Virus record (IMG/VR): IMGVR_UViG_3300042567_000190
Location: 1-36,710 of that record
DNA length: 36,710 nt
Source: a virus
Direction: 5' to 3' (one strand)
How positions within the stretch are numbered: the first letter of the stretch is position 1; each line of letters starts with the position of its first letter. Positions 1 to 36,689 of the stretch are shown in pieces. The notes under the pieces were generated by a model that had not been told where the DNA came from, ran no database searches, and worked only from the letters and a program-made list of their open reading frames with translations. Both the position numbers and the translations under genes were made by a program.

Positions 1-2153
1 GTAGCCATTGTGTTAGCGACATCTTTTAAAGCTGCGTTATTGCCAGTGAGTGCAGTTTGCATACCTTGACCAGCTATCTGCGAAATGGTTGCAGAAGCTG
101 TTTTGGTTTTCTTCAGCATACCGCCAAGAACACCGCCCAATATGCTACCAGCGATAGCACCAATGGGGCCAAATGCAGCACCACCGATAGCACCGCCAAC
201 CTGTGCGCCCATCTTGGAGGACTTAACACCTAAGCCCTTAAATATGGCATCCACAGATGTTCCCACTTGAGCGCCAGCGGATGCCGCACCAAATGTTTTA
301 CCCAATTTACCTAAATCAAAGCCAGACTTTTTTAAGGCATCGCCTAATGTTTTTCCTATTGGGCCAAATGCCTTCTTCAATTCTTCTTTGTCAAAATTAG
401 CTTTAAGCGTGACCACAATATCTTTTAATCCGCTGGCTGCGCCACCAGCAATATCATCCAATAATCCTATAACGCCTTCCAGTTGCTGCTTTAACCTTTC
501 AGCTTCTTTGCGCTCCTTTTCTAATGCGCTTTCTCCAGCAATGATTTTGCCTTTGGCCGCAGAATAACGCTCCCAAGCAGCAGTCGCTTCATCAAGGCCA
601 AGGGCTGTAACATACTTAGCAATGAAGCCTTCGCGCTCCAATGCCAGTGCCGCCCTATCGCGCTCTGCCCCTGTCAGGCCAAGCAAGGATAGTTCGTCTG
701 CCAAAGCCTTTATGGTTTCATCAATTTGCTTGTTTGCATCTGCACGCTCTTTGGCACGCATTCCCTCAAGAAGCGCAGCGCCCAATGCCAGCGTTTCATC
801 CTTTAAACCAACCTTAGCCGCCGCAGCCGCCTTTTCAGCAATCTCCATTTCTTTCAATTGAATGGTAGTCTTGCCAATAGCCGCAGCTTGCTTTTCCAAT
901 GAAACCAAATAATCTTGAGCGGACTTCAGGTCACGTTCAAACTGCTTTTGCTCATCCGACAAGCCAGCCTTCTTGGGCTTACCTTCATTGCGCTTTTCGA
1001 TAAGTGCAGCAGCCTGTGCTGCCAAACGGGACTTGGTTGCATCTATTGTGTTTTGTTTAATCTGAAGGCCAATAGACTTCATGCCAGATAACGCTTCGTT
1101 GTAACGGCTGGAATAGGCATCAAAGACAGCCACAGTCGCCTTTGCAGCAGCGCCAGCATTTTCGTTGGCAACTCTGCCCAACTTGACACTTTCGACCTGT
1201 GCAAAAACAGCAGCCATGCCCATTGAGGTCAAGACACCATTGGCTTTCGTGGTTATAAAGTTGATACTGTTAACCGCTGCATTTATTAATATTTCAATGG
1301 TTCCAATTGCGGAATTGGTTGCTTGGACAAACAGGTCACCCAAAACTGCTGGAAGATTTTTCCATACGACTTTGATGGCATCAAATGAACCAGCAAAAGC
1401 TGCGTAGATGCCAGCAGTCGCCATGCCAGCGCCTTTTAATATCACATCAAAGGCTTGAACGGCAAATTCGCTTATGGATTGCCAAACCTTATCCAGCCCA
1501 AGCCCTTCGCTGATTGTTGTCCATACTCCTGATAGCACATCGCCAAACGTAACATGGACGCTTTCAAGTTCGCGCATTTCCTTTTTGGTCAAGCCAAGGG
1601 AATTGGCGTAATCTTTAATCTCGCCAGTTTCGCCAACGGCAGATTGAAATTGCTTAAACGCAACATAAGCAACAGTTGCCGCCGCAGCTATGCCCAGCAA
1701 GATAGGGTTGGTTACGATTGCCAGCGTTGCCGCAGCGACCATTGAACCCAAGGCGCGGACAACGCCGCCGATGCCGATTTGGGCTTGCGTCATAATGCCG
1801 CCAATTTGAGCGCCCTGCTGGATAAAGGCGGTCAAAGGATTTGCACCGCTGGCAATCTGAACGCCCAAATCCTGAAACTGGAAGCCAAGGTTCATCATGT
1901 GATGCCGAGCAAGTTGACCAGTTTGACCAACTGCACGGTTGGCATTTGCGGCAGCGATTTGCGCTTTTTCGCCCTGCTGAATGATATTCGTCATGTTACG
2001 CATTGCCGAACCCGTGCTTTGGGCGGCAGTGCCTACATTGCGAACATCTCTTTCAGCATTTCCAGCAGCCGCACCAAGCGCATCTAGGTCTTTGGCAGCG
2101 GTCTTTACCTCACGGCTATCGACGCCAACTTTTAGGGTTGCTAAATCTGCCAC
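1..2153 (-). CDS. Tape measure protein, cassette version A (C-terminus cut by the window edge)
   Basis: Open from a GTG at 2153 to the left edge, about 717 codons visible. The GTG follows an AGCGAGG ribosome site, and the same GTG-GCA-GAT start is used by the other tape measure protein at 35717. The N-terminus reads VADLATLKVGVDSREVKTAA; near residue 80 is NLGFQFQDLGVQIASGANPL, typical of the lambda-H-like prophage tail-length protein family (TMP_2). A hydrophobic stretch follows (about residues 110-160), then charged helical sequence. The last ~100 visible residues, including KSSKMGAQVGG and LKKTKTASATISQIAGQGMQ, closely match residues ~710-805 of the 31062-35717 protein. The middle does not resemble that protein. 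It sets tail length and is threaded through the tail tube. Confident in the family; the missing end is unknown. Confidence 0.93.
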   Translation of the reverse strand, partial: MADLATLKVGVDSREVKTAAKDLDALGAAAGNAERDVRNVGTAAQSTGSAMRNMTNIIQQGEKAQIAAANANRAVGQTGQLARHHMMNLGFQFQDLGVQIASGANPLTAFIQQGAQIGGIMTQAQIGIGGVVRALGSMVAAATLAIVTNPILLGIAAAATVAYVAFKQFQSAVGETGEIKDYANSLGLTKKEMRELESVHVTFGDVLSGVWTTISEGLGLDKVWQSISEFAVQAFDVILKGAGMATAGIYAAFAGSFDAIKVVWKNLPAVLGDLFVQATNSAIGTIEILINAAVNSINFITTKANGVLTSMGMAAVFAQVESVKLGRVANENAGAAAKATVAVFDAYSSRYNEALSGMKSIGLQIKQNTIDATKSRLAAQAAALIEKRNEGKPKKAGLSDEQKQFERDLKSAQDYLVSLEKQAAAIGKTTIQLKEMEIAEKAAAAAKVGLKDETLALGAALLEGMRAKERADANKQIDETIKALADELSLLGLTGAERDRAALALEREGFIAKYVTALGLDEATAAWERYSAAKGKIIAGESALEKERKEAERLKQQLEGVIGLLDDIAGGAASGLKDIVVTLKANFDKEELKKAFGPIGKTLGDALKKSGFDLGKLGKTFGAASAGAQVGTSVDAIFKGLGVKSSKMGAQVGGAIGGAAFGPIGAIAGSILGGVLGGMLKKTKTASATISQIAGQGMQTALTGNNAALKDVANTMA

Positions 2154-2193
2154 GCTGTAACCTCGCTGAATGGTAATTGCTTATAGCGCAAAT

Positions 2194-2638
2194 TTATGCC
2201 CTTGTCTTGCCAACATTGATTTTATCTGCCCATGATGACATTGCGTCTGCAATTTTCTGCCGCCGTTCGTTTGTTATGATAGATGGGTCTACCCAAGGTG
2301 GCGGACAACTGGCTTCACTGGCCTGTCCCAACATATAAGCATATTCTTTGGATAGCGTGCGGACAGCCTTGGCTTCCCACGGTGTTAAGTTGATGCCTTG
2401 GTTAAATTGCCAAGCTACAAGGTCAATTTCATCAATACCAACTTGCCCACCCATTCCAGATGATTTAGTTGGGCCAACTTCAAACAGGACTTCAAGCAAG
2501 TGAGCGCCAGCCTCAATAGGAGGCATGGCGTCCGACTTGGTTTCGCGTCTTGGGCGCTGGGCTTTCGACGGTATTGTGTTAAGCCACGCTGACTGTTTTA
2601 CGAACAGGGCTAGTTGTTGGAGCGTCTGTGCGAAAAAA
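2194..2638 (-). CDS. T extension of the tail assembly chaperone (GT, made by -1 frameshift), copy A
   Basis: This frame lies -1 to the G gene and is joined to it at the slippery run near 2633-2639. After the shift the product reads FAQTLQQL and continues through TIPSKAQRPRRETK to a TAA at 2194. It supplies the T domain, which in lambda-like phages binds the tape measure protein and recruits tail tube subunits. No good independent start with a ribosome site is seen at the beginning of the frame. The same arrangement recurs at 35778-36216, where the frame is conserved although many bases differ. That supports real translation. The tape measure GTG follows 40 bases downstream. Confidence 0.85.
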
Positions 2639-3019
2639 GTTGGCGCGATTACCGACAAACTCCTGCACTTGCTCTTTAATCCATGACCATTCGGTATAAA
2701 CCATGCGAGCATTGTCAGGCGTAAGTTCAAGGTTTTTGCCATCAAGAGCAAAGCCAGCCCATGCAGTCGTAAGCTTGACCAAATCTTCAATGCTATCTTC
2801 AGACAGCTTTTCAGCGTCAAGGTCGATAGCCTTTTTGCCCTTAGCCATTCGGTTCAATGCGGTTTGTTGCTTGCCCATTTGAAGCTTGCGATACACTTTG
2901 CTATCTTGACCAAGCAAAGTAATCGTCATTCCCTCAATAACTTCTTCACTTTCGGGGTGAACAAGGTTTAGAACAGCGCCATCGTCAGCCATTAAAGGCT
3001 TTAAGCTATTTAAATCCAT
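2579..3019 (-). CDS. Tail assembly chaperone G, copy A
   Basis: 146 residues, starting MDLNSLKPLMADDGAVLN and ending RKTVSVA. Position between the major tail protein and the tape measure gene, plus a -1 overlapping frame, identifies it as the G part of a G/GT tail chaperone pair. By hand count about 80% of residues match the copy at 36157-36597. The ATG at 3019 is preceded by AAGGA in the loop of a small hairpin (TTAGAA/TTCTAA), just below the large RNA fold at 3039-3090. G should be made in excess and GT as a minor product. Family assignment rests on context and architecture more than on motifs. Confidence 0.88.
   Translation of the reverse strand: MDLNSLKPLMADDGAVLNLVHPESEEVIEGMTITLLGQDSKVYRKLQMGKQQTALNRMAKGKKAIDLDAEKLSEDSIEDLVKLTTAWAGFALDGKNLELTPDNARMVYTEWSWIKEQVQEFVGNRANFFRTDAPTTSPVRKTVSVA
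2633..2639 (-). other. Programmed -1 frameshift site C-TTT-TTT (chaperone copy A)
   Basis: In the G frame the codons read AAC TTT TTT CGC. A -1 slip on the six-T run changes the reading from FFRTDAP to FFAQTLQQ and opens the T frame to 2194. The heptamer and both downstream frames are preserved in the second copy at 36211-36217. The heptamer differs from the lambda GGGAAAG site. Efficiency cannot be judged from sequence. Confidence 0.75.
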
Positions 3020-3132
3020 TAGAAACTATCCTTCTAAATATCCGACTTTTGTCTTGGGTAGGCAAGTCGGATAGTGATTGCCTACCCAAGTTCTTCTAGC
3101 GTTCTAGCTAATTAGACTTTGATAATCGAGTT
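3006..3132. repeat. 127-bp exact repeat, left copy (assembly junction)
   Basis: Identical base for base to 36584-36710, at a constant offset of 33,578. The identity stops at 3005 (G here, A in the other copy), and the right copy ends with the window. It spans the first codons of chaperone G, the intergenic RNA fold and the last six codons plus stop of the major tail protein. The exact length of 127, a standard assembler k value, points to a graph branch point and not a biological repeat. Confidence 0.95.
3022..3090 (-). promoter_or_regulatory. Large RNA fold (hairpin with possible pseudoknot) upstream of chaperone G
   Basis: Read on the minus strand, CTTGGGTAGGCAA (3090-3078) pairs perfectly over 13 bp with TTGCCTACCCAAG (3065-3053), leaving a 12-base loop. 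Eight loop bases, TATCCGAC (3073-3066), are also complementary to GTCGGATA (3046-3039) just downstream. This allows an H-type pseudoknot or a competing hairpin. The AAGGA ribosome site then sits in a third small hairpin ending at the ATG. No uridine run follows the main stem, so a plain intrinsic terminator is unlikely. A role in limiting chaperone and tape measure expression relative to the tail tube protein is inferred. Confidence 0.7.
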
Positions 3133-3564
3133 GTCAATTTCAAGCGTAACTTCTGCCATCGTGATAGCATCAGCATTGCCAACATTGACCTTGTAGGACA
3201 TAACTTGAGCGGTGAAATACTGAATTTCGCCGTTAACAAGAACAACCTTAACCGAAACTAGAGCATCCGTGCCAGCAGCAGCTTCAGCAGCATCCTGCAG
3301 AACAGTTTGACCAGTATCCGCATCAGATACGGCCATCGTCAAAGCTACGGAACCGTAGTTAAGCGAACCACGGCGCTTGGCAACAATGCCAGTAGCAAGC
3401 GGGGTGTGCGTAGCAAGGGCAGCTTCAGCACCGAACGAAGGCAATTCAGCCAATTCGCCACAAGGTGAAAAAGTAAGCGCACCAAATCCAGCGGCATTAT
3501 AAGTTGCTGGTGCGGTGGTCGAAACGGAAACAACAGTCCCTACGGACGAAACAATATCAGACAT
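3112..3564 (-). CDS. Major tail (tube) protein
   Basis: 150 residues, MSDIVSSVGTVVSVSTTAPAT to EVTLEIDNSIIKV, rich in Ala, Val, Thr and alternating beta-type sequence. It fits the lambda V-like tail tube family. It polymerises as hexameric rings around the tape measure protein to form the tail tube. It lies directly upstream of the G/GT chaperone and downstream of the tail terminator and completion genes, the usual siphovirus order. GGAG stands eight bases before the ATG. A -10-like TATAAC lies about 33 bases upstream. Its last codons recur at the right end of the window, because the sequence wraps around. Identification is by size, composition and position. Confidence 0.8.
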   Translation of the reverse strand: MSDIVSSVGTVVSVSTTAPATYNAAGFGALTFSPCGELAELPSFGAEAALATHTPLATGIVAKRRGSLNYGSVALTMAVSDADTGQTVLQDAAEAAAGTDALVSVKVVLVNGEIQYFTAQVMSYKVNVGNADAITMAEVTLEIDNSIIKV

Positions 3565-3595
3565 TTAAATTACTCCAATTGCAAGTGGTTCGATT

Positions 3596-3624
3596 GTTAT
3601 AGCATTTTTTTTATTACAAAGTAA
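3596..3624 (-). promoter_or_regulatory. Possible promoter for the major tail gene
   Basis: On the minus strand TATAAC (3601-3596) lies 17 bases after TTACTT (3624-3619). The -10 is good but the -35 is weak, so a phage activator may be needed or the match may be chance. It would start a short leader for the major tail protein in the only sizeable gap of this gene block. Confidence 0.3.
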
Positions 3625-3626
3625 GC

Positions 3627-4004
3627 CTATGTTAGCTGCCTTGTAATGTCGTTGACTGTGACGCGAACCATCCCAGCAGGGGCTTGTCTTGACCAGCCCT
3701 CAAATTCAAGTCGATAGATATACGGCAAGTTATTTGTAATCCACAAAACATTGCCCGTTGCTTTAGATATTGCGCCTAGTGAGCCAGCAATAGTTGAAGA
3801 ACCGCTTGCGTCAGTCGACTCTGTTATGTTGTCAGTTGGGCTACCAATGCTGGTAAACCAGTTAGCTCTTGCACGGCCAGTGTCTACAGGCGTTTTAAGC
3901 ACGATGCCTGTAACTAAGTCCAAGCATATTTTACGCACTTGAGCGTCAGCAGTCTTGCTGGTCTTGTCAATGAATTTGCTTATGTCTAATTTAAAGGTGC
4001 TCAT
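3627..4004 (-). CDS. Tail completion / HK97 gp10-like protein
   Basis: 125 residues with the hallmark TPVDTGRARANW at about 37-49, seen in HK97 gp10-like and lambda Z-like proteins at the head-tail interface. A later aromatic stretch, NNLPYIYRLEFEGWSRQAP, is also typical of the family. The start overlaps the end of the gene at 4001-4396 by four bases (ATGA), so translation is coupled. It sits in the order connector, terminator, completion, tube. A role in finishing the top of the tail before joining the head is expected. Confidence 0.85.
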   Translation of the reverse strand: MSTFKLDISKFIDKTSKTADAQVRKICLDLVTGIVLKTPVDTGRARANWFTSIGSPTDNITESTDASGSSTIAGSLGAISKATGNVLWITNNLPYIYRLEFEGWSRQAPAGMVRVTVNDITRQLT

Positions 4005-4396
4005 ACGAACGCCCGATAAGCAATGCTGACAGGGATAACAAATCTATCGCCAGATACAAATGCAGCCGATTGTGATACGCTTTGAATGGTCACTGTAACG
4101 CTACTGTAAGTGAACCTATCGCCACGTTGGAATGCAGCGGCCACAGTATCAGCAACAGTCCTGCCAGCGCCCTTGCCAGCGTCCACAGGTGCATAAACAA
4201 GCACTTGGTATATACCGCCCAGTTCATCGCTTGAACCTGTGGCAATGCCTATAGGAATGGTTGCGCCTTGCAACAGGCTTTCAGACACATAGATTTGCCC
4301 AGCAACAGGCGTGAATTTGGTATTCTCCCAATGCGTAGGAAGGTTTAGCGTGTCTAATTGTGTAGCCAACGCAGCGGCTATTTGCGAGTTACTCAT
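4001..4396 (-). CDS. Tail terminator-like protein (DUF4128 type)
   Basis: 131 residues, beginning MSNSQIAAALATQLDTLNLP. The central part, IYQVLVYAPVDAGKGAGRTVAD followed by RGDRFTY, looks like the DUF4128 / lambda U-like tail terminator family, whose ring caps the tail tube and stops its growth. It lies directly before the gp10-like gene and overlaps neighbours on both sides (8 bp upstream, 4 bp downstream). The assignment rests on family resemblance and on position in the head-tail joining block. Confidence 0.75.
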   Translation of the reverse strand: MSNSQIAAALATQLDTLNLPTHWENTKFTPVAGQIYVSESLLQGATIPIGIATGSSDELGGIYQVLVYAPVDAGKGAGRTVADTVAAAFQRGDRFTYSSVTVTIQSVSQSAAFVSGDRFVIPVSIAYRAFV

Positions 4397-4577
4397 CTAA
4401 AATGTCCACAAGTTGCATATCTATAGCCACCTTTTTGCCGTCATCTAGCTTGATTATGTAAGCTATTACTTGGTTATGCGTATCATATAGAACGCTGTCC
4501 AGAATACCTGAGTCCCATTGTGATGGAAAAAATACGCGCTCGCCCATAGGTATCATTAGTTTGCCCTTATTTGACAA
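4389..4577 (-). CDS. Small conserved-looking protein in the head-tail joining block
   Basis: 62 residues, MSNKGKLMIPMGERVFFPSQ to VDILDE. No family recognised. The composition (beta-rich, one Trp, acidic end) suggests a small SH3-like or OB-like fold, but that is a guess. It overlaps the upstream gene by 22 bases and the downstream gene by 8, which favours a real coupled gene. It could be a minor head-tail joining component. Confidence 0.6.
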   Translation of the reverse strand: MSNKGKLMIPMGERVFFPSQWDSGILDSVLYDTHNQVIAYIIKLDDGKKVAIDMQLVDILDE

Positions 4578-4909
4578 ATGTAAATTACATCCTCACCAGT
4601 AAGGCGAATAGGCTGCACATTCATTATGCGATATGTTGTGCTGTCAACCAATGCCAAGCAACCAACATCAGGGGGCGTGCTTATCAATTCAAGGATTAAA
4701 CGTATATCACCAGCCTTGATGCTTGTGCCGTCTACATCCTTTTTTTGATAAAGTGCTGGATAACCTTTGCCCGTTATCGTCGTGCTAGTGTTGGTTCCAG
4801 TAACTGCGCCTGTTATTGGGTCTGTCCCGCCATACACAGGAAAGATAATGGACACCGCTTCGCCATATTTAGCAAGCAGCCGTGATGCTGTTTGCGCTTG
4901 GCTACTCAT
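4556..4909 (-). CDS. Head closure / head-tail joining protein candidate
   Basis: 117 residues, starting MSSQAQTASRLLAKYGEAVSI. The pattern of a short N-terminal helix, then KGYPALYQKKDVDGTSIKAGD and a C-terminal strand ending VIYICQIRAN, resembles small beta-barrel head closure proteins that plug the connector before tail attachment. It lies between the DnaT-like adaptor and the tail terminator. It overlaps the upstream gene by four bases. Position is the main evidence. Confidence 0.65.
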   Translation of the reverse strand: MSSQAQTASRLLAKYGEAVSIIFPVYGGTDPITGAVTGTNTSTTITGKGYPALYQKKDVDGTSIKAGDIRLILELISTPPDVGCLALVDSTTYRIMNVQPIRLTGEDVIYICQIRAN

Positions 4910-5418
4910 GTGCGAAGTGGCCTAACCACAGCAAACCCGCTTTCAGATGCGGAAATTAGGTATGGCATAACCATGCGATTGACTAATGGGTAACGCTGCG
5001 TTGGGTCTGAATAATCTTGGTATTCAACCTCAATTACATCAATCTTTTCGCGCCTTACCCTTTGCCCTTGGTCGGCAAGCAAAGTCTCGCCAAGTGAAGC
5101 CCGTATAGCCATTTCGATGCAAGCATTTATTACTTGTGTTGGCACGACATTGGCGGGGAAATTAAATCCATCAACAATTACGTTATATCGCGGCCACGAC
5201 AGCGACTGCGTTTCACTAACGCGATTGCCTTTCCAAGCACCGCGATATGTAGCTTCCAGATAATCTGTAGCGTTTACCAATGATTGCTGCTTGATTGTGG
5301 AGCTTAATGCTGTCCAACCCGCTATCCCACGGTCAGCAACATAGCTATCCGCAGCCGAAACGCTGGCGTAGCTATTAGCATTAGAAAGCCCTGCACCTGT
5401 TTCGACTACGAATGCCAT
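4906..5418 (-). CDS. Head-tail adaptor, annotated in related phages as DnaT-like ssDNA-binding
   Basis: 170 residues. The start MAFVVETGAGLSNANSYASV with AADSYVADRG, then ATDYLEATYRGAWKG and TQSLSWPR, is characteristic of a phage family often labelled DnaT-like ssDNA-binding protein. The family sits consistently just after the capsid gene and is thought to be a connector/adaptor. Here it follows the capsid and a small acidic protein, so a structural role below the portal is more likely than DNA replication. The end overlaps the next gene by four bases. Confidence 0.8.
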   Translation of the reverse strand: MAFVVETGAGLSNANSYASVSAADSYVADRGIAGWTALSSTIKQQSLVNATDYLEATYRGAWKGNRVSETQSLSWPRYNVIVDGFNFPANVVPTQVINACIEMAIRASLGETLLADQGQRVRREKIDVIEVEYQDYSDPTQRYPLVNRMVMPYLISASESGFAVVRPLRT

Positions 5419-5422
5419 TTAA

Positions 5423-5713
5423 TTAACCCTTTTTAGAGCGTTTGTATTTTGAAGCAACTTCAGCAATATATTCCTCAACGGCTTCGTCAAGTTTCTCAGC
5501 GGCTTCTTCAATTTCTGCTTCTGGCTCATACGCTACTAGCGTATCTTCTGGCTTTGCTTCTGGTTCAATAGAGGCTTCTTCTGTATCCAGTTTTTGATGG
5601 ATAGGTGTGCCAGCAGGAGCAAAGATTGCATCAATGATTTTGTATCCATCAGCTTGCAACTTAGCTTTGCGTGCGGAGCTAACTGGATGCGGTTCGTAAA
5701 TTATTTTAGCCAT
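5423..5713 (-). CDS. Small acidic protein after the capsid gene
   Basis: 96 residues. The N-terminus has a basic segment, VSSARKAKLQADGYKIIDA, that looks like a small helical domain. Residues 45-85 are strongly acidic (EPEAKPED, EAEIEEAAEKLDEAVEEY), with a basic tail KYKRSKKG. No firm family. Location one gene downstream of the major capsid protein suggests a head-associated accessory protein. Its transcript follows the hairpin at 5733-5760. Confidence 0.7.
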   Translation of the reverse strand: MAKIIYEPHPVSSARKAKLQADGYKIIDAIFAPAGTPIHQKLDTEEASIEPEAKPEDTLVAYEPEAEIEEAAEKLDEAVEEYIAEVASKYKRSKKG

Positions 5714-8473: not shown

Positions 8474-8495
8474 AGCGCCTTAAGCCAGACAGTCA

Positions 8496-8843
8496 TTATT
8501 TACTATCTTTCATAAGTTGAACGCCACGCCACGTTGTGCCACCATCGTCAGTAATAAAGCCCAGAACGTCAACACCTGATGCCGTAAGCGAAGGGGCTGT
8601 GCCGCTAGGCCACTTAATGCCACTAAACCAAGTTTGCGTGCCAGTGCCGCCGTTGGTTAGTTCAAGGATAAAGCTGTAAGAGCGCGATGCAGGGACGTTT
8701 GTTGCAGTCCATGTAAGAGCGCCAGATGCAGTCTTTATGAAGTAATTCCCAGAGGAGCAATTGATGGCACTTGCCGCTACTGTGGTGACGCTTCCACGCA
8801 CTGAACCAAGAAGGTCGGCGGTTGCCGCTGTAATTGTGCCTGT
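8496..8843 (-). repeat. Shared fibre C-terminal domain, head-cluster copy
   Basis: Encodes the last ~115 residues, ending GTTWRGVQLMKDSK. The protein sequence is about 85% identical to 29099-29446, while synonymous positions differ widely. It is a reused module kept by selection and not a recent duplication. It is probably a trimerising or binding head domain. Confidence 0.85.
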
Positions 8844-9923
8844 AAACGTAGGTGAGTCCAGTGGCGCTGCTCCTGTGACATCAGCCACTGGGATTGCAGC
8901 CGAAGCCGTCATCGCACTTGTGCCACTACCCTTAATGTATCCAGTAAGGGTTGTTGCGCCCGTGCCTCCGTTTGCGACAGGCAATGTGCCATTAACGCCG
9001 ATTGCTAGAGATACAGTGTTCTTTTCCCAAAGCCCATTAGTGCTGTTGTAAACGATAGTTTGACCGTTGCTTGGGTTTTGAGCCGCCACATCGTGTAGCT
9101 CATCCATCTCATAGCCGTTTTGCACTTTGACGAATAATTTACCCTGCGTAGGGTGAGCGTGTTCAACAATAGCAACGTAAACCAAATGCTGTGGCGCATG
9201 GGGCTTGGTTGCTGTCAGTGTTCCAGCCGTTGTGGGGCTTAGATATAATTGAGCGCCATCCGTGTAGGCAGATGTATTAATGTTAGTGATGGTTCCAATT
9301 AGCGTCACATTGCCATTTGAATTGTTGGAGATGTTGGCTGTGACCAAGCCAAGCGTTTGCGCTGACGTTGCATCGCTGGTAGCAAGTGCCTTGCTGACAG
9401 TAGAAAGCTGACCAGTAGCGCCGCTAATATATACAGCCGTGCCTTTTGTTAGCGTTGCGCCCGTATTATTGCGGATTGGCAAAAGCACATTGGTTGTTGA
9501 ACCAGCAACGGCAACCGATAGGTCTATCTCCGTTGTTCCAGTAATAGTTACAGAGCCATCAGCAGATGCAATGGTTTGAACAGCCGTATCAGCCTTAGTT
9601 CCTTGCGCCGCTGTTGCTGGCGTGTAGCCTAAAGCATCTGTGACGTTGGTTGACGTAAGGGAAAGCGTTCCGCCAAGCGTCAGTGAACCAGATGTTGTTA
9701 CTGTGCCTGTTAAAGTTAATCCACTAACGCTGCCTGTGCCTGATACGCTTGTAACAGTTCCAGCACCATCAGCGCCGACTTCAACGATGCTCTGTGTGCC
9801 GTCATCTTTCTTAGTGTATACCTTGCCATCATAAGTATTGATAGCAAGTTCACCCAACACAAGGTCGCCTACGCTTGGAATCTTTGCTGGAACCGCGCTA
9901 CGTTTAAACTTCATTAGTGCCAT
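8496..9923 (-). CDS. Fibre protein encoded in the head gene cluster
   Basis: 475 residues. The N-terminus MALMKFKRSAVPAKIPSVGD, continuing LVLGELAINTYDGKVY, resembles the N-terminal attachment segment common in phage fibres. Next comes a low-complexity Thr/Ser/Gly region (GTVTSVSGTGSVSGLTLTG), a beta-rich middle, and repeats of the SPTFTGTI kind. The last ~115 residues are about 85% identical to the end of the tail fibre at 29099-30169. GAGGG lies nine bases before the ATG. Position between the collagen-like gene and the Mu-F gene, far from the tail fibres, suggests a head fibre or decoration. Tail attachment cannot be excluded. Confidence 0.8.
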   Translation of the reverse strand: MALMKFKRSAVPAKIPSVGDLVLGELAINTYDGKVYTKKDDGTQSIVEVGADGAGTVTSVSGTGSVSGLTLTGTVTTSGSLTLGGTLSLTSTNVTDALGYTPATAAQGTKADTAVQTIASADGSVTITGTTEIDLSVAVAGSTTNVLLPIRNNTGATLTKGTAVYISGATGQLSTVSKALATSDATSAQTLGLVTANISNNSNGNVTLIGTITNINTSAYTDGAQLYLSPTTAGTLTATKPHAPQHLVYVAIVEHAHPTQGKLFVKVQNGYEMDELHDVAAQNPSNGQTIVYNSTNGLWEKNTVSLAIGVNGTLPVANGGTGATTLTGYIKGSGTSAMTASAAIPVADVTGAAPLDSPTFTGTITAATADLLGSVRGSVTTVAASAINCSSGNYFIKTASGALTWTATNVPASRSYSFILELTNGGTGTQTWFSGIKWPSGTAPSLTASGVDVLGFITDDGGTTWRGVQLMKDSK

Positions 9924-9962: not shown

Positions 9963-10652
9963 TTAATAAGTTCCGCCGTCAAATACGCCAGCAGTGTTAG
10001 TCCATTTTGATGTTGAAAGATTATATTGCAAAATGTCAAGGTCAGCAGCATCTGCGATTGCAACATCTTCTAAATCAGATAATTCATTTGCACCGCCGCC
10101 ACTACCTCCGCCGCCAAAAAATCCGCTCATTTTTGCAATTGGCAAGTCAATCTTAAACTCTTGCCCATCCGTTAGTGTGATATAGAATGAGTTATCCTCG
10201 CGCTGCTCAATAAGGGCTATGCCTACGCCAGCAGAACCATCAACTCCGTCCTTGCCATTAATGCCATCTTTGCCGTCTTTGCCATCGACGCCATCTTTTC
10301 CATCCTTGCCGTCTTTCCCAGCCTGTCCGATTAACGTATCACGGTTAATGGCGAACCATATTTCTACGGCAACTTGTATTTCATCATCTGTAGGCGTGCG
10401 GCCATCAACGCCATCTTTACCATCTACGCCGTCTACGCCATTTATAGGTTGCTCAAAGTTTTCGCGCAGCCATAATTCAGCAGCGTTTTTTATTTGGCTA
10501 TCAATGATAACGTCTATTTTCTGCTCAATAATACCATTGGCTTCATTTGTCGCACTTTGAATAAGCTGCTTAGACGCAACACCATCTACGCGCACGTTTA
10601 AAGCGGCAATGGCCTCAACCAGAACGCCGACAATCTCACCACTAATAGCCAT
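9963..10652 (-). CDS. Collagen-like repeat protein (probable virion fibre)
   Basis: 229 residues. After a helical N-terminal region (VEAIAALNVRVDGVASKQLI), two Gly-X-Y tracts occur: about 5 triplets near residue 75 and about 12 near residue 120 (GKDGKDGKDGVDGKDGKDG). Between them is a short helical insert; after them IALIEQREDNSFYITLTDG and a Gly-rich loop. Such tracts form trimeric collagen-like stalks in phage fibres. It lies directly after the portal and before the fibre at 8496-9923, so the two may form one appendage. Confidence 0.8.
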   Translation of the reverse strand: MAISGEIVGVLVEAIAALNVRVDGVASKQLIQSATNEANGIIEQKIDVIIDSQIKNAAELWLRENFEQPINGVDGVDGKDGVDGRTPTDDEIQVAVEIWFAINRDTLIGQAGKDGKDGKDGVDGKDGKDGINGKDGVDGSAGVGIALIEQREDNSFYITLTDGQEFKIDLPIAKMSGFFGGGGSGGGANELSDLEDVAIADAADLDILQYNLSTSKWTNTAGVFDGGTY

Positions 10653-15912: not shown

Positions 15913-15957
15913 AGTCGTTTCCTTATGTGGCGGGGCGCTGCCCCTTGCTGATGCCCC

Positions 15958-15986
15958 CTTATATGAGCATCGATTTTTTCTGTCAA
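15958..15986 (-). promoter_or_regulatory. Leftward promoter, near-consensus sigma-70 type
   Basis: Minus strand TTGACA (15986-15981), 17-base spacer, TATAAG (15963-15958). This is the best promoter match in the window. It would give a leader of about 40 bases to the gene starting at 15912 and could feed the small regulators, the terminase and beyond. It is divergent from the promoter at 16034-16062. Confidence 0.8.
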
Positions 15987-17991: not shown

Positions 17992-18017
17992 GGGTGGCTT
18001 CGGTCACCCATTTTTTT
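17992..18017 (+). terminator. Rightward intrinsic terminator
   Basis: GGGTGGC-TTCG-GTCACCC followed by ATTTTTTT: a 7-bp stem with UUCG loop and a seven-T run. No rightward gene is seen to its left, so it would stop antisense transcripts or a short RNA starting near 17960. The T-run overlaps the stop codon of the leftward DUF1064 gene. Confidence 0.75.
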
Positions 18018-18360
18018 ACTTTGTTTCGCGCAAAAAGTAATTTGGGAATAGCGCAATAAACACAGCGCGGCGCAGAGGCCAATCCCGAACGATTACCCCT
18101 TTTACATCCTCAGTGACCCATATGCCATTTTCGTTATATTCAAAGTCAGACTTGTAGCCCACGCGCCTACCATTGGGATGCTTTAGCTGACGGCCATTGA
18201 TGACAAACCAGTATTGAGGATGCACCGTCAGTTCAGTAATCTCACCAGCCGCTTGCATTAGATGCAGTTCATTACACCTAATGGCTTCCCGTTTGCTGTC
18301 ATGAGTATGACCAGCATTGCATTGCGACTTAACTGCCCGATACTTGCCGAAGCGTTTCAT
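18016..18360 (-). CDS. DUF1064-like nuclease
   Basis: 114 residues: HDSKREAIRCNELHLMQAAG then EITELTVHPQYWFVINGRQL, YKSDFEYNENGIWVTEDVKG and a C-terminal RRAVFIALFPNYFLRE. This matches DUF1064, a phage family with a PD-(D/E)XK-type core; the D of SDFEY and the E and K of TEDVKG are the expected catalytic residues. It probably processes branched DNA during replication or packaging. It overlaps the upstream HTH gene by four bases. Confidence 0.88.
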   Translation of the reverse strand: MKRFGKYRAVKSQCNAGHTHDSKREAIRCNELHLMQAAGEITELTVHPQYWFVINGRQLKHPNGRRVGYKSDFEYNENGIWVTEDVKGVIVRDWPLRRAVFIALFPNYFLRETK

Positions 18361-18563
18361 GCGTTTAATTTGCTCTCAATCAAACGGTCCAGTGCGTCAT
18401 TGGCTTGCAACCATGCAGCCAGAGTTGGTTCGCACCTGTCAGTTTTCCAGTTTGATAGCGTGACACGGGTAATGCCAGCTTCGTTGGCTATCTGGTAAGC
18501 CCTGATTTTATGCAGCTTTGCTACGGTAAAAAAGTCGGCAATCGTTTGTTGAACAGTGGTCAT
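18357..18563 (-). CDS. Cro/CI-like helix-turn-helix protein
   Basis: 68 residues: HKIRAYQIANEAGITRVTLS then NWKTDRCEPTLAAWLQANDA, a compact lambda-repressor-like DNA-binding fold with no extra domain. It is transcribed divergently from the recombination operon at 18655, with 91 bases between, which is the usual place for an early-gene switch protein. It overlaps the DUF1064 gene by four bases. No integrase is encoded, so it may tune replication timing and not lysogeny. Confidence 0.8.
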   Translation of the reverse strand: MTTVQQTIADFFTVAKLHKIRAYQIANEAGITRVTLSNWKTDRCEPTLAAWLQANDALDRLIESKLNA

Positions 18564-18654
18564 ATTAAACTTTCTTTCGGCTGATAATAAAAAGAGCTTT
18601 TAATCTTATGCAAATTGATTACAAGGGGTTTGGCAAATAAAAGGAGATACCACA
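18564..18654. promoter_or_regulatory. Divergent early control region
   Basis: A leftward promoter candidate is TTGCAT (18613-18608), 18-base spacer, TATTAT (18589-18584). Inside its spacer lies AAAAG-AG-CTTTT (18590-18601), an operator-like inverted repeat. No clear rightward -10/-35 pair was found for the gene at 18655. Autoregulation by the HTH protein is inferred. Confidence 0.4.
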
Positions 18655-19215
18655 ATGCCAGTGCATAAAAAAATCAATGAGGCACGAGTTGCCTTCCATG
18701 CTTTACCGCTTAAAAAGTCAGGTCATAACACGTTTGCGGGTTACAAATATTTTGAGCTATCGGACTTTGTAATTCCCGCCCTTCGCATTTTTAACGATGT
18801 CGGGTTGTGCGCTATTATCAGTTTTTCCGAAACCACAGCTTCAATGCACATTGTCGATGTTGAAGATGGCACGCAAGTTATCATTCATAGCCCAATGGGT
18901 TCTGCTAATCTTAAAGGTTGCCACGAAATACAAAACATTGGTGCTTGCGAGACATACAGCACCCGATACCTCTGGACAGCAGCCCTTTGCATCGTCGAGC
19001 ATGACGCTTTAGATGCTACGACAGGCAAGAGCGAACCAGCGCCACGGGATAAGTTTATTAGCAAAGCGCAGTTTGATGAATTGCAAGCCTTAGTAGACAA
19101 GACCAACACCGACAAAGCCTTACTCTGTAAGCATTATAAAATCGACGCACTTGCGGAATTGCAAGAAAGCCGCTTCGATATAGTTAAGTCTGCATTAGAA
19201 AAGAAGCTGGCATGA
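18655..19215 (+). CDS. erf: ERF-family single-strand annealing protein
   Basis: 186 residues. The core ALPLKKSGHNTFAGYKYFEL followed by SDFVIPALR, and the signature IGACETYSTRYLWTAALCIV ending EHDALD, are those of the ERF superfamily (P22 Erf). The family anneals complementary single strands during phage recombination and end-joining. The C-terminal ~50 residues form a separate helical part. AAGGAG lies seven bases before the ATG. It overlaps the exonuclease gene by four bases, forming an Erf/Exo pair. Confidence 0.92.
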   Translation: MPVHKKINEARVAFHALPLKKSGHNTFAGYKYFELSDFVIPALRIFNDVGLCAIISFSETTASMHIVDVEDGTQVIIHSPMGSANLKGCHEIQNIGACETYSTRYLWTAALCIVEHDALDATTGKSEPAPRDKFISKAQFDELQALVDKTNTDKALLCKHYKIDALAELQESRFDIVKSALEKKLA

Positions 19216-19841
19216 CAGACGCAGCTATTATCCAACGCAGCGCAGAATGGTTTGCAGCACGTTGTGGAAGCCTTGGCGCTTCCCAACTAGCAGACGCTCT
19301 AGCTAAGACAAAATCAGGCTGGGGAGCGTCACGCGCTAACCTTCGCGCCAAGCTGGTGGTCGAACGGCTAACAGGCCAGCAAGAAGAAAGCTTTACCAGT
19401 GCAGCAATGTTATGGGGAGTGGAAAAAGAGGAAGAAGCCAGAATAGCCTATAGCTTTCTTACAGGGCGTAATGTGGTTGAGGTGGGCTTGTATAAGCACC
19501 CGACCATTATTGGCTCTCACGCCAGCCCTGACGGGCTTGTGGATGATAATGGGTGCTTAGAGATTAAGTGCCCTAATTCAGCCACGCATATCGAAACGCT
19601 AAAAAGCAATCAGGTTGCCCATAAGTATCTTTTGCAGATGCAATGGCAGATGGCCTGTGCTGACCGCCAGTGGTGTGACTTTGTGAGTTTCGACCCACGA
19701 ATGCCAGACCACCTTACGCTTTATGTGCAGCGGGTAGAGCGTGACAACGATATGCTGGCAATCTTGGAAGCGGAAGTCAGCACGTTTCTTTCAGAGGTAG
19801 AAGCTGACGTAAAAAAACTAAATGAAATTGGAGACGCATAA
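19212..19841 (+). CDS. YqaJ / lambda Exo-like 5'-3' exonuclease
   Basis: 209 residues. The start QRSAEWFAARCGSLGASQLA is the typical opening of the YqaJ family. Catalytic residues are seen in IGSHASPDGLVDD (Asp) and CLEIKCP (Glu, Lys), near residues 98-118, and a later QMQWQMACADRQWCDFVSFD. Lambda Exo-type enzymes resect double-strand ends to give tails that the adjacent ERF annealase uses. Its start overlaps the erf stop and its stop shares a base with the next ATG. Confidence 0.94.
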   Translation: MTDAAIIQRSAEWFAARCGSLGASQLADALAKTKSGWGASRANLRAKLVVERLTGQQEESFTSAAMLWGVEKEEEARIAYSFLTGRNVVEVGLYKHPTIIGSHASPDGLVDDNGCLEIKCPNSATHIETLKSNQVAHKYLLQMQWQMACADRQWCDFVSFDPRMPDHLTLYVQRVERDNDMLAILEAEVSTFLSEVEADVKKLNEIGDA

Positions 19842-20062
19842 TGGCACAAATGGATAGAGTTTTATCGCACCTTAAAGAAAAAGGCACAATTCAACCATTA
19901 GAAGCATGGCGCGACCTTGGCATTTATCGCCTTAGCGCCGTGATTTATGACTTGCGGCAGGAAGGCCATAAAATAGATACCAAGCGAATTGAAGTGGTTA
20001 ATAGATTTGGTGAGCCACTTCTTATTGCTGAATATACCTTAGAGCTAGAAAATGCTGCCTAA
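19841..20062 (+). CDS. HTH_39-type helix-turn-helix protein
   Basis: 73 residues, MAQMDRVLSHLKEKGTIQPL then EAWRDLGIYRLSAVIYDLRQ and EGHKIDTKRIEV. This is the compact winged helix seen in many phage recombination operons (HTH_39 pattern). The function of the family is not settled. It is tightly coupled: it shares one base with the exonuclease stop and overlaps the next gene by 11. Confidence 0.85.
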   Translation: MAQMDRVLSHLKEKGTIQPLEAWRDLGIYRLSAVIYDLRQEGHKIDTKRIEVVNRFGEPLLIAEYTLELENAA

Positions 20063-20381
20063 CCGCATTGCCAAGAAGCCAAGGCGCACGGCAAGGTGGC
20101 GGTCACAAGGGCATCTAAATTTTATTAGGTCATTTCATTGCTGTATTAATGGCTGTGAAGAAATGCCTATTGAATGCGCCCATGTCCGCTTTGGAAGCAG
20201 CACAGGCATGGGACAAAAGCCAAATGATTGGCGAGTAGTTCCATTATGCCGCAATCATCACAATCAACAGCATACAGTTGGTGAGCAGACCTTCTGGAAA
20301 GGCATTGACATTGAAGGCTTGATTGAGGCGTTTTGCAAAGCTAGTCCAAAAGCAAAAGAGATTAAGGAGGCGCAATCATGA
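20052..20381 (+). CDS. HNH-type nuclease, DUF968/Ref-like
   Basis: 109 residues. CCINGCEEMPIECAHVRFGS gives the zinc-type cysteines and first His; DWRVVPLCRNHHNQQHTVGE gives the HNH core. This pattern matches the DUF968 / YbcO / Ref group of phage nucleases that work in recombination. Its place between Exo and NinB supports such a role. It overlaps the HTH_39 gene by 11 bases and the next gene by 4. Confidence 0.85.
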   Translation: MLPNRIAKKPRRTARWRSQGHLNFIRSFHCCINGCEEMPIECAHVRFGSSTGMGQKPNDWRVVPLCRNHHNQQHTVGEQTFWKGIDIEGLIEAFCKASPKAKEIKEAQS

Positions 20382-20578
20382 ATATCGCAGAACAAGAACG
20401 TGCAGCCATTGTTGCTTATTTGCGAGAAACAGAAATTATTCATAAAAGCTGGGCTAAATTTTATGGCACAACCAAGGGTAAGCACGACTGGCACGCAGAA
20501 GCTTGTAAGTATGCAGCGGATGCTATTCAGAACGGGGCTCATTTAGTTCCGCATAGTGGCGAAAGTCCACCTGTATGA
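20378..20578 (+). CDS. Hypothetical protein in the recombination operon
   Basis: 66 residues, MNIAEQERAAIVAYLRETEI to SGESPPV. A helical protein with HDWHAEACKYAADAIQNGAH; no family recognised with certainty. Four-base overlaps with both neighbours and an AGGAGG-like site upstream support real expression. Confidence 0.7.
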   Translation: MNIAEQERAAIVAYLRETEIIHKSWAKFYGTTKGKHDWHAEACKYAADAIQNGAHLVPHSGESPPV

Positions 20579-20955
20579 CTCAAACAGTCTGGCTTCGCGG
20601 TGAGCATCAAAGACGATTAGCCCACCAGCTTATCGACCATGCTCCAGTAGATGCAGTTGTCAAAGTCAGTGCCGCCAAGCGCAGCGATGACCAGAATGCA
20701 AAAATGTGGGCCATGCTATCTGATATTAGTCGAGCAAAACCAGAAGGCAGAATGCACATACCAGAAGTGTGGAAATGCATCTTTATGGCAGCACTAGGGC
20801 ATGAAGTTAAATTTGAGATGGGGTTGGATAACCAGCCCTTCCCGATAGGGTTTAGAACATCAAGGCTAACCAAGCCAGAGATGTCAGACTTGATTGAGTT
20901 TATTTACGCATACGCAAGCAAGCATAATATAAAATGGAGTGAAGAATATGAGTGA
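20575..20955 (+). CDS. ninB: NinB-like recombination protein
   Basis: 126 residues. [20 protein letters not shown] then [20 protein letters not shown], ending [20 protein letters not shown], match NinB (lambda Orf), which binds ssDNA and SSB and helps load annealase. It is expected in an Erf/Exo/SSB operon. Length is slightly below that of lambda Orf. It overlaps the GapR-like gene by 8 bases. Confidence 0.9.
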
Positions 20956-21181
20956 TAATACCGACGATATGTTGCGCCTGTTGATTGAGCGCATTGAACG
21001 CATGGAAATTGAAAAGAAAAGCGTTACAGATGACATTAAAGACATTTACGGCGAAGCAAAATCGCACGGATATGACGTTAAAATCTTGCGTGCCGTTATA
21101 CGCCTTCGTAAGATGGAAAACCACGAACGGGCAGAATACGAAGCCCTGCTTGAAACATACATGAACGCACTAGGCGGCTAA
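20948..21181 (+). CDS. GapR-like nucleoid protein (DUF2312)
   Basis: 77 residues from the ATG at 20948, with GGAG eight bases upstream; an in-frame GTG at 20939 is weaker. [20 protein letters not shown] then [20 protein letters not shown] and a final [11 protein letters not shown] match the GapR family closely. GapR binds over-twisted, AT-rich DNA ahead of polymerases in Alphaproteobacteria and assists replication. A phage copy could organise phage DNA or aid topoisomerases. It is the best host clue in the window. Confidence 0.9.
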
Positions 21182-21191
21182 GGGGAATATT

Positions 21192-21554
21192 ATGCAGAAT
21201 ATCACAATATCTGGAAACATTGGCAAGGATGCTGAGTTGCGCGACACTCGCGACAGCAAGGTTCTTAGCTTTAATGTTGGCGTAAAGAATGGCTTTGGCA
21301 AAGATGCTGGCAGTGTTTGGTATCGTTGCAGCTTGTGGGGCAAGGCAGCGGAAGTGTTTGCTGGCAGCTTAAAGAAAGGCACTAAGGTTTTTGTATCTGG
21401 CGAGCTTACGCACGACGAATATGAAGGCAAGCCACAGTTCAATGTGCGAGTTGGCAGCATTGATACAGCGCCACGTTCTGAAGCTGGTGCGCCTGTTGCA
21501 ATCAAGCATACGGATGGCTCATCATGGGATGAGTTAGACGATGCGCCATTTTGA
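21192..21554 (+). CDS. ssb: Single-stranded DNA-binding protein
   Basis: 120 residues with an OB fold: NITISGNIGKDAELRDTRDS, VWYRCSLWGKAAEVFAGSLK, and KVFVSGELTHDEYEGKPQFN. The C-terminus ends DELDDAPF, an acidic tip with terminal Phe like bacterial SSB (DDDIPF), used to recruit partner proteins such as NinB and nucleases. The AAGGGG site precedes the ATG. It closes the set annealase, exonuclease, NinB, SSB. Confidence 0.94.
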   Translation: MQNITISGNIGKDAELRDTRDSKVLSFNVGVKNGFGKDAGSVWYRCSLWGKAAEVFAGSLKKGTKVFVSGELTHDEYEGKPQFNVRVGSIDTAPRSEAGAPVAIKHTDGSSWDELDDAPF

Positions 21555-21854: not shown

Positions 21855-21886
21855 CGCTTTTATTTTACAAAATGCGCTTTTATAAG
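21855..21886 (+). promoter_or_regulatory. Promoter-like region with CGCTTTTAT direct repeat
   Basis: CGCTTTTAT occurs at 21855-21863 and 21875-21883, exactly 20 bases apart (about two helical turns). The second copy ends in TATAAG, the same -10 hexamer as the strong promoter at 15958. No good -35 is seen, so an activator binding the repeats is possible. It would drive the small genes from 21931. Confidence 0.5.
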
Positions 21887-21930
21887 AGGGCATCAGCAAG
21901 GGAATAATCCCGCCATTTAGGAGACTGATA

Positions 21931-27298: not shown

Positions 27299-27747
27299 TA
27301 TTCAGGCTTTTCGGGCCAAGTAATGTTGAACGGGTCTGCTTGGTCTGTAATATCCCGCAACGCTTGACGGTATGTAGCCCATTCTGCTGTCTGAGTGTTA
27401 GTCAGCGGCGCATCAGGAAGCTGCGTCCAATCGCATTCAGCCAGTTGAGTGTTGCGCTCACCCCGAACAGACATCCACTGCTGCTCGGTTCGCGCCTCAA
27501 TTTCTGATGGGCTTGCATCTGTCACAACCCAATTTTGCGTCCATACGCCAGCAATCAATAGTGGCATCCCCTCGCTTATATTCTTTGTGTAATCAAAAGC
27601 AGGGAATTGGGTTTGCTGAACAAGCTCATACCCGTCTGGCGCAACAAACGGAGTTGGGAAGCTGCAATTTGGATAACGCAGACGAATGTCACCTTCTGCG
27701 ACAGGATATTCAACAAGAGCGCCGTTTTCAATTTTTGCATAAGTCAT
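27298..27747 (-). CDS. Tail fibre assembly-like protein
   Basis: 149 residues. The C-terminal part, VRGERNTQLAECDWTQLPDA then TNTQTAEWATYRQALRDITD and NITWPEKPE, matches the chaperone-like family found beside phage tail fibres. The N-terminus YAKIENGALVEYPVAEGDIR is a fibre-type strand domain. It follows the fibre genes and overlaps the beta-propeller gene by four bases. It likely helps folding or attachment of the fibres. Confidence 0.85.
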   Translation of the reverse strand: MTYAKIENGALVEYPVAEGDIRLRYPNCSFPTPFVAPDGYELVQQTQFPAFDYTKNISEGMPLLIAGVWTQNWVVTDASPSEIEARTEQQWMSVRGERNTQLAECDWTQLPDAPLTNTQTAEWATYRQALRDITDQADPFNITWPEKPE

Positions 27748-29099
27748 ATCTGGGTCACCACTGAAGTTAGAGATAAGTTTCCATCCGTAAGATTTGTATT
27801 TTGCTGACCAGTATTGCTAAGGTTTCCGCCAGCAGCAAAGGCTTCTGCGTCATGAGTATAAGTAGGTGTGGTATCTGTTAAAGAAGTAATAGCGTAAGTA
27901 AATGATGTCCCATTTACGCTATATGTTCCCATTCCAGAACCGTCTGATGGCAAGTTAGCAACCAACATATCTCCATTGTTAGTTGAAATGCTTGAGCAAA
28001 AATACAAATTTCCATCGCTATCTACAGTTAAACCATTACAATAATCACCAGCACCACTACGTCCAAATCTGCGTTGCCATTGCAGCGCCCCAGACGAATT
28101 ATATTTTGCTAAAAGAATGTCGGCATCACTAGTAACATTGCAATAGCCAGCGCAATAAACATTCCCGCTTCCATCAATAGCAATTTTTTGCCACCCTTGG
28201 TCTTTTGATGGGTCGCCAAGTTCTCGCTGCCATAGCAAAGAACCAGAAGTATTATATTTCAAAAGAAGGCATTGAGTTGTGCCACTATAGCCTGTTTGAC
28301 CTGCAACATAAATATCGCCACTACTGTTTAACGCATTATCATTCCCATAAGCGTTAGGCCCTGACATAAGTTTTTTAAGCCACAAAAGGTTGTTTGCGCT
28401 ATCAAATTTCGCCGTAACAATAAAATTCCAAGTATTAGGATAGCGGCTTGGAAAGTAATTGGGTGGCCTATAGTCCGAAGTGTAACCTACGGTAAAAATA
28501 TTCCCGCTATTATCAACTTTAATAGAAGCCATGCCATCTGAACGCACTTGGTCGTTGGTGTAGACTTTTAGGTTTTTGATAACTTGGAAAGTTCCAGAAG
28601 AATTATATTTTGAATAATATCCTGTATCGTAACTTGAATTTCCCGTCCAAGGGCCTTGGCCGCAAAAATAGATGTTACCGCCGCTATCTGTTGTAACCCC
28701 TGATGTGTATACATCTCTTGAAGCTTGGTCAAAACCGCGCTGCCATTGAAGTGTTCCAGACAAATTATATTTTGCCAAAACTGGGCTTCTGCTTCCTCCA
28801 ATTAGTGAGGCATACCCGATAGCATAAAGGCTATTATTATTTTTATCGACAGTAACACTGGAGCCAAAGGCATTATAACTAACAGAAAGTTTTTTCTGAA
28901 ATTGTATTACACCAAGATTGCTTAATTTAATAACAGCATAACCATAAGGGGTGCTTGGGTTAGTTGTATAGCCGTTGAGATAAATATTTTTATCGTTATC
29001 CAAGGTTATGCCGTTGGGTTCGTCAATTTGTCCAGATGTAAGAATACCAATCCATCCACCGCCGCCAGAGCCGCCATTTAGAAAAACTCTATCCAACAT
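27744..29099 (-). CDS. Beta-propeller tail protein (SBBP-like repeats)
   Basis: 451 residues. Starts MLDRVFLNGGSGGGGWIGIL. Then about seven repeats of a ~50-residue unit with DSGGNIYFCGQ, DNSGNIFTVGYTS, SSGDIYVAGQTG, DGSGNVYCAGYC and DSDGNLYFCSS, each followed by a segment like LAKYNSSGALQWQRRFG. That is an SBBP-type beta-propeller. The C-terminus is beta-rich. Located next to the tail fibre, it is a candidate receptor-binding tip. The base composition is visibly richer in A+T than the flanking genes. Confidence 0.85.
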   Translation of the reverse strand: MLDRVFLNGGSGGGGWIGILTSGQIDEPNGITLDNDKNIYLNGYTTNPSTPYGYAVIKLSNLGVIQFQKKLSVSYNAFGSSVTVDKNNNSLYAIGYASLIGGSRSPVLAKYNLSGTLQWQRGFDQASRDVYTSGVTTDSGGNIYFCGQGPWTGNSSYDTGYYSKYNSSGTFQVIKNLKVYTNDQVRSDGMASIKVDNSGNIFTVGYTSDYRPPNYFPSRYPNTWNFIVTAKFDSANNLLWLKKLMSGPNAYGNDNALNSSGDIYVAGQTGYSGTTQCLLLKYNTSGSLLWQRELGDPSKDQGWQKIAIDGSGNVYCAGYCNVTSDADILLAKYNSSGALQWQRRFGRSGAGDYCNGLTVDSDGNLYFCSSISTNNGDMLVANLPSDGSGMGTYSVNGTSFTYAITSLTDTTPTYTHDAEAFAAGGNLSNTGQQNTNLTDGNLSLTSVVTQI

Positions 29100-29446
29100 T
29101 ATTTGCTATCCTTCATAAGTTGGACGCCGCGCCAAGTGGTTCCACCGTCATCAGTGATAAAGCCTAGCACATCAACGCCAGAGGCAACAAGTGTTGGTGC
29201 TGTTCCTGTGGGCCATTTAATCCCACTCATCCAAGTTTGTGTTCCTGTGCCGCCATTTGTAAGTTCAAGAATGAAGCTATAGGCGCGAGTGGCAGGGATA
29301 TTGGTAGCAGTCCAAGTCAGAGCGCCAGATGCGGTCTTAATAAAGTAGTTGCCCAAAGAGCAGTCTACTGCACTTGCCGCCACGGTTGTGATGTTACTGC
29401 GAACCGAACCAAGGGCATCAAGCGTTGCAGTTGTAGCAGTGCCAGT
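29099..29446 (-). repeat. Shared fibre C-terminal domain, tail copy
   Basis: Encodes the counterpart of 8496-8843. The protein is about 85% identical, while the third codon positions differ widely. In both genes it is the final domain. Confidence 0.85.
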
Positions 29447-35717: not shown

Positions 35718-35777
35718 GCGCAATATCCTATGAGGCCCAGAGCGTTATCGCTGAATTCAGGTCATAGCACAAGTCTG

Positions 35778-36216
35778 TTATCTTGTCTTGGTATTGATGC
35801 GATTACTCCAATCAGACATTGCATTGGATATTTTTTCGCGCATTTCGTCAGTTATTATTTCAACATTAGACCAAGGCGCTGGCGTATTAGGTTCAGAACC
35901 AGCAGAAAGCATCGCTGCGTATTCATGCGATAAAGTTCTGATAGTTCGTGCTTCCCAAGGTGTTAATTGCACATTTTGATTTGACATCCATGCGGCCAAA
36001 TCAATCTCATCTATCGCTATGTTCCCACCCATGCCAATAGGCTTGGCAGGGCCGACCTCAAAAAGTATTTCAAGAAGGTAGGCTCCGCCAAGCACGGGAG
36101 GCATCGCATTTGACTTGGTTTCCCGTCTAGGGCGCTTTGCCTTTGACGGGATTGTGTTAAGCCACGCTGCTTGTTTTACGAACAGTGTTAGTTGTTGGAG
36201 CGTTTGTGCGAAAAAA
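35778..36216 (-). CDS. T extension of the tail assembly chaperone, copy B
   Basis: The -1 frame joined to G at 36211-36217; reads FAQTLQQLTLFVKQAAWLNT then TIPSKAKRPRRETKSNAMPP to a TAA at 35778. The first 30 residues are highly similar to copy A; the later part is more diverged. It ends 60 bases before the tape measure GTG. Expected to bind this tape measure protein as the GT fusion. Confidence 0.85.
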
Positions 36217-36597: not shown

Positions 36598-36616
36598 TAG
36601 AAACTATCCTTCTAAA

Positions 36617-36668
36617 TATCCGACTTTTGTCTTGGGTAGGCAAGTCGGATAGTGATTGCCTACCCAAG
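36617..36668 (-). promoter_or_regulatory. RNA fold upstream of chaperone G, copy B
   Basis: Same 13-bp stem (36668-36656 with 36643-36631) and loop-to-downstream pairing (36651-36644 with 36624-36617) as at 3039-3090. The identity lies wholly inside the assembly overlap, so it is not independent evidence of conservation. Confidence 0.65.
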
Positions 36669-36689
36669 TTCTTCTAGCGTTCTAGCTAA

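Follow-up and report, generated by a model that had tools for sequence, protein, structure and literature searches.

Genes and features of the locus

The window analysed here, 36,710 bp long, is an entire IMG/VR virus record and is listed there as linear. Near each of its ends lie genes for a tail assembly chaperone, G and the T part of GT, and for a tape measure protein (TMP), all on the minus strand (Table 1). In keeping with a chaperone of the lambda type, G/GT sits between the tail-tube and TMP genes and has a second, overlapping reading frame. The G protein of the first copy matches the profile phrog_313 (E = 8.8e-12); a search of Pfam gave no match for G.

Table 1. Features of the window discussed in the text (positions in the 36,710-bp window)
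Feature	Position	Strand	Remarks
TMP allele A, TMP_2-class N-terminus	1–2153	-	717 aa, runs off contig start; PF06791; extended to 847 aa by contig L005
Chaperone GT, T part, allele A	2194–2820	-	frame +1/−2 relative to G
Tail assembly chaperone G, allele A	2579–3019	-	phrog_313; chimeric: B-lineage 5′ end, A-clade remainder
Predicted slippery site AACTTTTTTCGC in G, allele A	2630–2641	-	allele B counterpart at 36208–36219
Recombination joint inside G of allele A	2860–2990	-	97–100% B lineage above; 92–97% L006/L011/L012 below
127-nt block, copy 1	3006–3132	-	equals 36584–36710; assembly k-mer overlap; A/B-shared tract reaches 3141
G RNA leader	3025–3090	-	13-bp hairpin 3053–3090, loop 3066–3077, P1 3039–3046, P2 3025–3031 (ribosome-binding site)
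Major tail (tube) protein	3112–3564	-	phrog_158; haplotypes w (window, L018) and x (L005, L019)
Shared remainder of genome	3133–33298	.	head, replication, recombination, lysis and tail-tip genes
Phage recombination genes	18016–21554	.	Holliday junction resolvase, Erf-like annealase, RecE-like exonuclease, NinB/Orf, SSB
TMP allele B, TMP_3-class N-terminus	31062–35723	-	1553 aa; PF20155
Chaperone GT, T part, allele B	35778–36275	-	overlapping-frame ORF
Tail assembly chaperone G, allele B	36157–36597	-	slippery site 36208–36219
127-nt block, copy 2	36584–36710	-	includes G RNA leader at 36603–36668

The earlier note described bases 1–3005 as a diverged version of 33301–36583 in the same gene order, and 1–3132 does align collinearly with 33299–36710. 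Its figure of 267 bp for the shortfall of the first version needs correcting, as the two intervals differ by 278 bp (3005 vs 3283). In the same orientation, 2076–3132 is 74% identical to 35640–36710, and 2–307 is 75% identical to 33299–33604; between these end blocks, gapped nucleotide identity is approximately 32–63% (mostly 40–55%), as for unrelated sequence. Bases 1–3005 (A) and 33299–36583 (B) are alleles of one locus, comprising chaperone G/T and the N-terminal half of the TMP.

TMP A matches Pfam TMP_2 (E = 1.4e-11; 44.9 bits vs a gathering score of 30.2) and TMP B matches TMP_3 (E = 4e-65; 219.6 bits vs a gathering score of 41), while an N-terminal ADLA/NL..VDSREVK box and a glycine-rich block (residues 616–669 of A and approximately 707–760 of B) are common to both. 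The note's picture of a shared start, a shared later block and an unrelated middle – together with the peptides it named – is thereby borne out, with the offset between the two proteins corrected to 91 residues. It had also proposed tails of different build. If the C-terminal part of A is colinear with that of B, TMP A would have approximately 1462 residues vs 1553 in B, an expected difference of only ~91 of 1553 residues, which is judged small because complete TMPs in the group range from 1134 to 2023 residues (one 297-residue truncated frame left out). The two alleles would thus build tails of slightly different length.

As in the G/GT system of phage lambda (PMC5009743, PMC4493119), tail tube, G, GT and TMP follow one another in that order, the G and T frames overlap, and G contains a putative slippery site. 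However, the lambda shift is −1, whereas the G–T frame relation here is +1 or −2, the shift being predicted on a T6 run, and a 92-nt structured leader precedes G. The run AACTTTTTT stands in phase 0 of G in 56 of 85 relatives.

Two alleles on one contig

The presence of both versions on one contig is explained by the exact identity of its last 127 nt (36584–36710, the longest identical suffix) with 3006–3132. An exact end overlap of this sort is what de Bruijn graph assemblers leave at a node of k = 127. The ends of a circular relative, 3300042549_002156 (34,315 bp), likewise repeat over exactly 127 bp, and a B-carrying contig of another dataset (L020, 3300042888) terminates at exactly window base 36710. 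The assembled path would then have run from allele A through the shared genome to allele B, halting where B re-enters the node at 3006 – in other words, one circuit of a siphophage genome with a circular map, written out as a line that starts in A and ends in B at the same chaperone–TMP locus. Closed with allele B, the circle measures 33,578 bp. The co-occurrence of A and B on the contig is the work of the assembler, not of the phage. Terminal redundancy that is heterozygous within single virions could occur in a headful phage, but there is no need to invoke it, the k-mer overlap being enough to account for the ends.

Each allele can be followed upstream into the shared genome on other contigs. 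L018 (dataset 3300042324) joins B to window 3133–3661 with 0 mismatches, and L005 (3300042888) joins A to window 3499–4974 at 100%, its 26 differences from the window being confined to 3142–3498 (tail-tube haplotype x). B is joined to the same haplotype x in L019 (3300042519), and dataset 3300042888 holds A (L005) and B (L020) as separate contigs. Beyond window 3661, where L018 ends, it is the present contig that connects B with the shared head genes, and the downstream continuation of A is known over 390 nt, ~94% identical to B. Independent contigs tile 3133–33298 at 99.5–100%, with a gap at 4975–5685. The joins in L005 and L018, with the separate A and B contigs of dataset 3300042888, uphold the view of A and B as alternative cassettes that occupy a single locus in closely related genomes. 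Each of 15 relatives of 30–40 kb carries a single cassette, with two chaperone loci found only in the window.

Across the contigs, window included, all four combinations of A or B with tail-tube haplotype w or x (3142–3498, 26 differences) occur. A switch by the assembler could account for some of these links, as the tract between variable sites is 136 nt, and we are unsure which haplotype truly adjoins A, since this tract, shared by A and B, barely exceeds k.

The same tract lends some colour to the idea that allele A derives from another phage and is attached to this genome solely through an assembly join. The tract (3006–3141) just exceeds k = 127, the other end of the contig halts exactly there, and the TMP continuation of A is 94%, not 100%, identical to B. 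Yet L005, from another dataset, joins A to 3499–4974 at 100% through a different tail-tube haplotype, and the parental switch at ~2860–2990 lies inside G, away from the k-mer block; because the sequence of the switch region has diverged from both parents, the recombination is old rather than an assembly join. We consider a foreign origin of A unlikely.

Far less credible is a tandem arrangement of both cassettes on one molecule, whether in a phage with two tail modules or in tandem prophages. Both cassettes do stand in the same orientation on one contig, but they are separated by one complete single-copy genome, the contig ends in an exact 127-nt k-mer overlap, the locus is single in the 15 relatives, and there is no integrase among the ORFs scanned. 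Least probable of all, and barely worth entertaining, is a programmed switch, invertible or driven by a retro-element, that alternates the cassettes to vary the tail. Two alternative versions of one locus are what such a switch would offer, but flanking inverted repeats, a recombinase and both versions in one genome – the marks of programmed tail phase variation – are not found: the locus lacks flanking inverted repeats, the sole long pair lying at 15942/21876; no invertase or reverse transcriptase was seen among the scanned ORFs (which did not include every small ORF); and none of the 15 relatives carries both versions. A walk round a circular genome, with A and B as natural recombinant alleles at one locus in near-identical phages, is by a wide measure the reading we favour and hold to be highly probable.

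Megablast against named phages returned no match, and MCP matches in named bacterial genomes do not identify the host. Elsewhere in the shared genome, a tail-fibre-like C-terminal segment of ~120 residues is duplicated (8494–8855 and 29097–29458; 75%). One copy belongs to a gene within the head module, between the portal and head morphogenesis genes, possibly encoding a head fibre that shares the tail fibre tip. The head module also encodes a weakly collagen-like protein (9963–10652, below the Pfam cut-off), and a beta-propeller (SBBP repeat) protein (27744–29099) follows the tail fibre.

Recombination joints and chaperone–TMP pairing

In sliding comparisons with relatives, allele A matches the B lineage at 97–100% across the tail-tube gene and the leader, as far as ~2990; by ~2850, it is 92–97% identical to L006/L011/L012 and 80% identical to B. 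Judged by these identities, A is an older recombinant that combines a B-lineage tail tube and leader with an L006/L012-like lineage, entered within the first ~50 codons of G, so that the chaperone of A is itself chimeric. Further along, L070, whose TMP N-terminus is of the TMP_3 class, is the nearest relative at 2193–2134 (97%); by 2073, beyond the N-terminal box, it is down to 30%, and L006/L011 stand nearest at 90–92%. The T part and TMP start of A thus show a further switch of parentage.

Similar joints recur among the relatives. In chaperone-matched pairs, 83–95% nucleotide identity ends 55–133 nt past the TMP start codon and, where it resumes, mostly does so 1.4–2.2 kb further on; L026 and L028 both depart from B at +2030. 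Such sharp changes at joints shared between homologues are those of mosaic (modular) allele exchange. The first joint coincides with the conserved TMP N-terminal box and lies downstream of the chaperone, which most such exchanges therefore leave behind. One further candidate, a different joint at the TMP end in L235 (window 31116), was rejected as an end artefact, bases 1–28 of L235 repeating, in inverted form, sequence that lies nearby in the same contig.

Joints at shared blocks in relatives and the parentage switch in A bear out the suggestion that shared blocks are the recombination points. A and B arose by homologous recombination where short stretches are conserved – in the tail-tube/leader/G 5′ region, in the TMP N-terminal box, and at sites 1.4–2.2 kb into the TMP – probably driven by the phage’s own Erf/RecE-type system, whose gene set is suited to short-homology exchange and may have made these joints. 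The recombination genes are flanked by a 27-nt inverted repeat (15942–15968 and 21876–21902; 89% complementary, 5.9 kb apart).

The further claim that chaperone and TMP are exchanged as a matched pair does not hold as a rule among the relatives. In the dereplicated set, TMP N-terminal class shows no association with chaperone clade (2 × 2 counts of 6, 8, 10 and 9, with all four combinations present; Fisher p = 0.73). For 85 contigs with G, dereplicated to 44, distances of G and T agree closely with each other (rho 0.91), and those of G and T, respectively, correlate with tail-tube distances at 0.49 and 0.53, with the TMP C-terminus at 0.46 and 0.42, and far less with the TMP N-terminus at 0.20 and 0.21, the last pair being lowered by the saturation of distances between unrelated N-termini. 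When 36 contigs are placed on trees, the G+T tree needs a minimum of 5 changes of N-terminal class, compared with 12.2 after shuffling and 10 for the tail-tube tree; for nine finer N-terminal clusters, the counts are 16, 25.5 and 20.

Individual re-pairings can be seen in both directions. L034 and L076 have chaperone distances of 0.01–0.02 and TMP N-termini at 0.92, and L021 and L027 carry near-identical chaperones beside unrelated TMP N-termini; in the reverse case, like TMP N-termini accompany differing chaperones in L008 and window A (N-termini at 0.10, T at 0.30) and in L033 and window B. Chaperone type does not predict TMP N-terminal type, and linkage on the trees is only partial: the honest reading is that these neighbours are loosely linked and repeatedly re-paired. 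Joint movement of chaperone and TMP N-terminus, as between A and B, is possible without being obligatory. As chaperones serve unrelated TMP N-termini, recognition is either loose or aimed at conserved parts.

Exchange that leaves the chaperone behind agrees with the finding that lambda G binds multiple TMP regions (PMC5009743), and with a DMS3 hybrid, isolated as a plaque-forming phage, that had received from JBD16C no more of the TMP than its first 856 residues (PMC10884400). There too, an N-terminal segment was exchanged and the rest of the TMP retained, although the hybrid is a laboratory product of a Mu-like phage, whereas exchange here is natural and in an unrelated siphophage group. A 2023 survey of TMP mosaicism by sequence could not confirm genuine recent cases (PMC10684548); the sharp joints it considered, within the TMP gene between closely similar and unrelated segments, resemble those described here, but pairs at 93–97% identity here break abruptly inside the TMP.

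An RNA leader before G

The block at which the alleles join contains a leader with a perfect 13-bp hairpin on the minus strand. Its loop motif ACTATCC complements GGATAGT at the G ribosome-binding site (P2), and TATCCGAC complements GTCGGATA directly after the hairpin (P1). The fold has a z-score of −4.9. Across 16 distinct block sets, pairing in the stem reaches 99.5% and two-sided changes number 60, vs a mean of 16.6 and a maximum of 26 in shuffles; these rows are related, making this and the following figures counts, not probabilities, and the diverged L124, L125 and L192 were left out of them. Loop–P2 pairing shows 12 two-sided changes (shuffle mean 4.7, maximum 10) and is 87.5% paired vs a maximum of 85.7%; loop–P1 is weaker, with 5 (mean 1.4, maximum 5) under a crude site assignment. 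In a scan of 5.18 Mb of fetched loci, the arrangement is almost confined to the position before G. The covarying hairpin occurs in most of the ~43 distinct leaders of relatives, and the exact leader in ten contigs (one A, nine B or B-like).

A plain transcription terminator was rejected, no U run following the hairpin. Rfam gave no match to the window at gathering scores and none for 2900–3300 up to E = 5, and a literature search found no title or abstract on such a leader. Nor do named phages with similar capsid proteins provide an example: GJ44 leaves just 3 nt between its tail-tube gene and the one that follows, and Klebsiella phage 37P2 has an additional gene separating tail tube from chaperone. 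On balance, we think it probable that this is an undescribed RNA switch, its loop pairing with P1 or P2 to set the chaperone:tail-tube ratio, retained whichever cassette follows. Pairing with P2 would mask the G ribosome-binding site, and pairing with P1 would release it.

Our verdict is that the alleles are real, recombinant and ordinary in kind, and that the leader is the more novel lead. The contig itself serves as a warning, its two versions being an assembly-graph product. For these phages, one chaperone can serve TMPs with unrelated N-terminal halves, and natural, sharply bounded TMP exchanges at 93–97% identity represent a class of event that the 2023 survey could not confirm. The leader before G, if it acts as proposed, would be a new kind of tail-assembly control.
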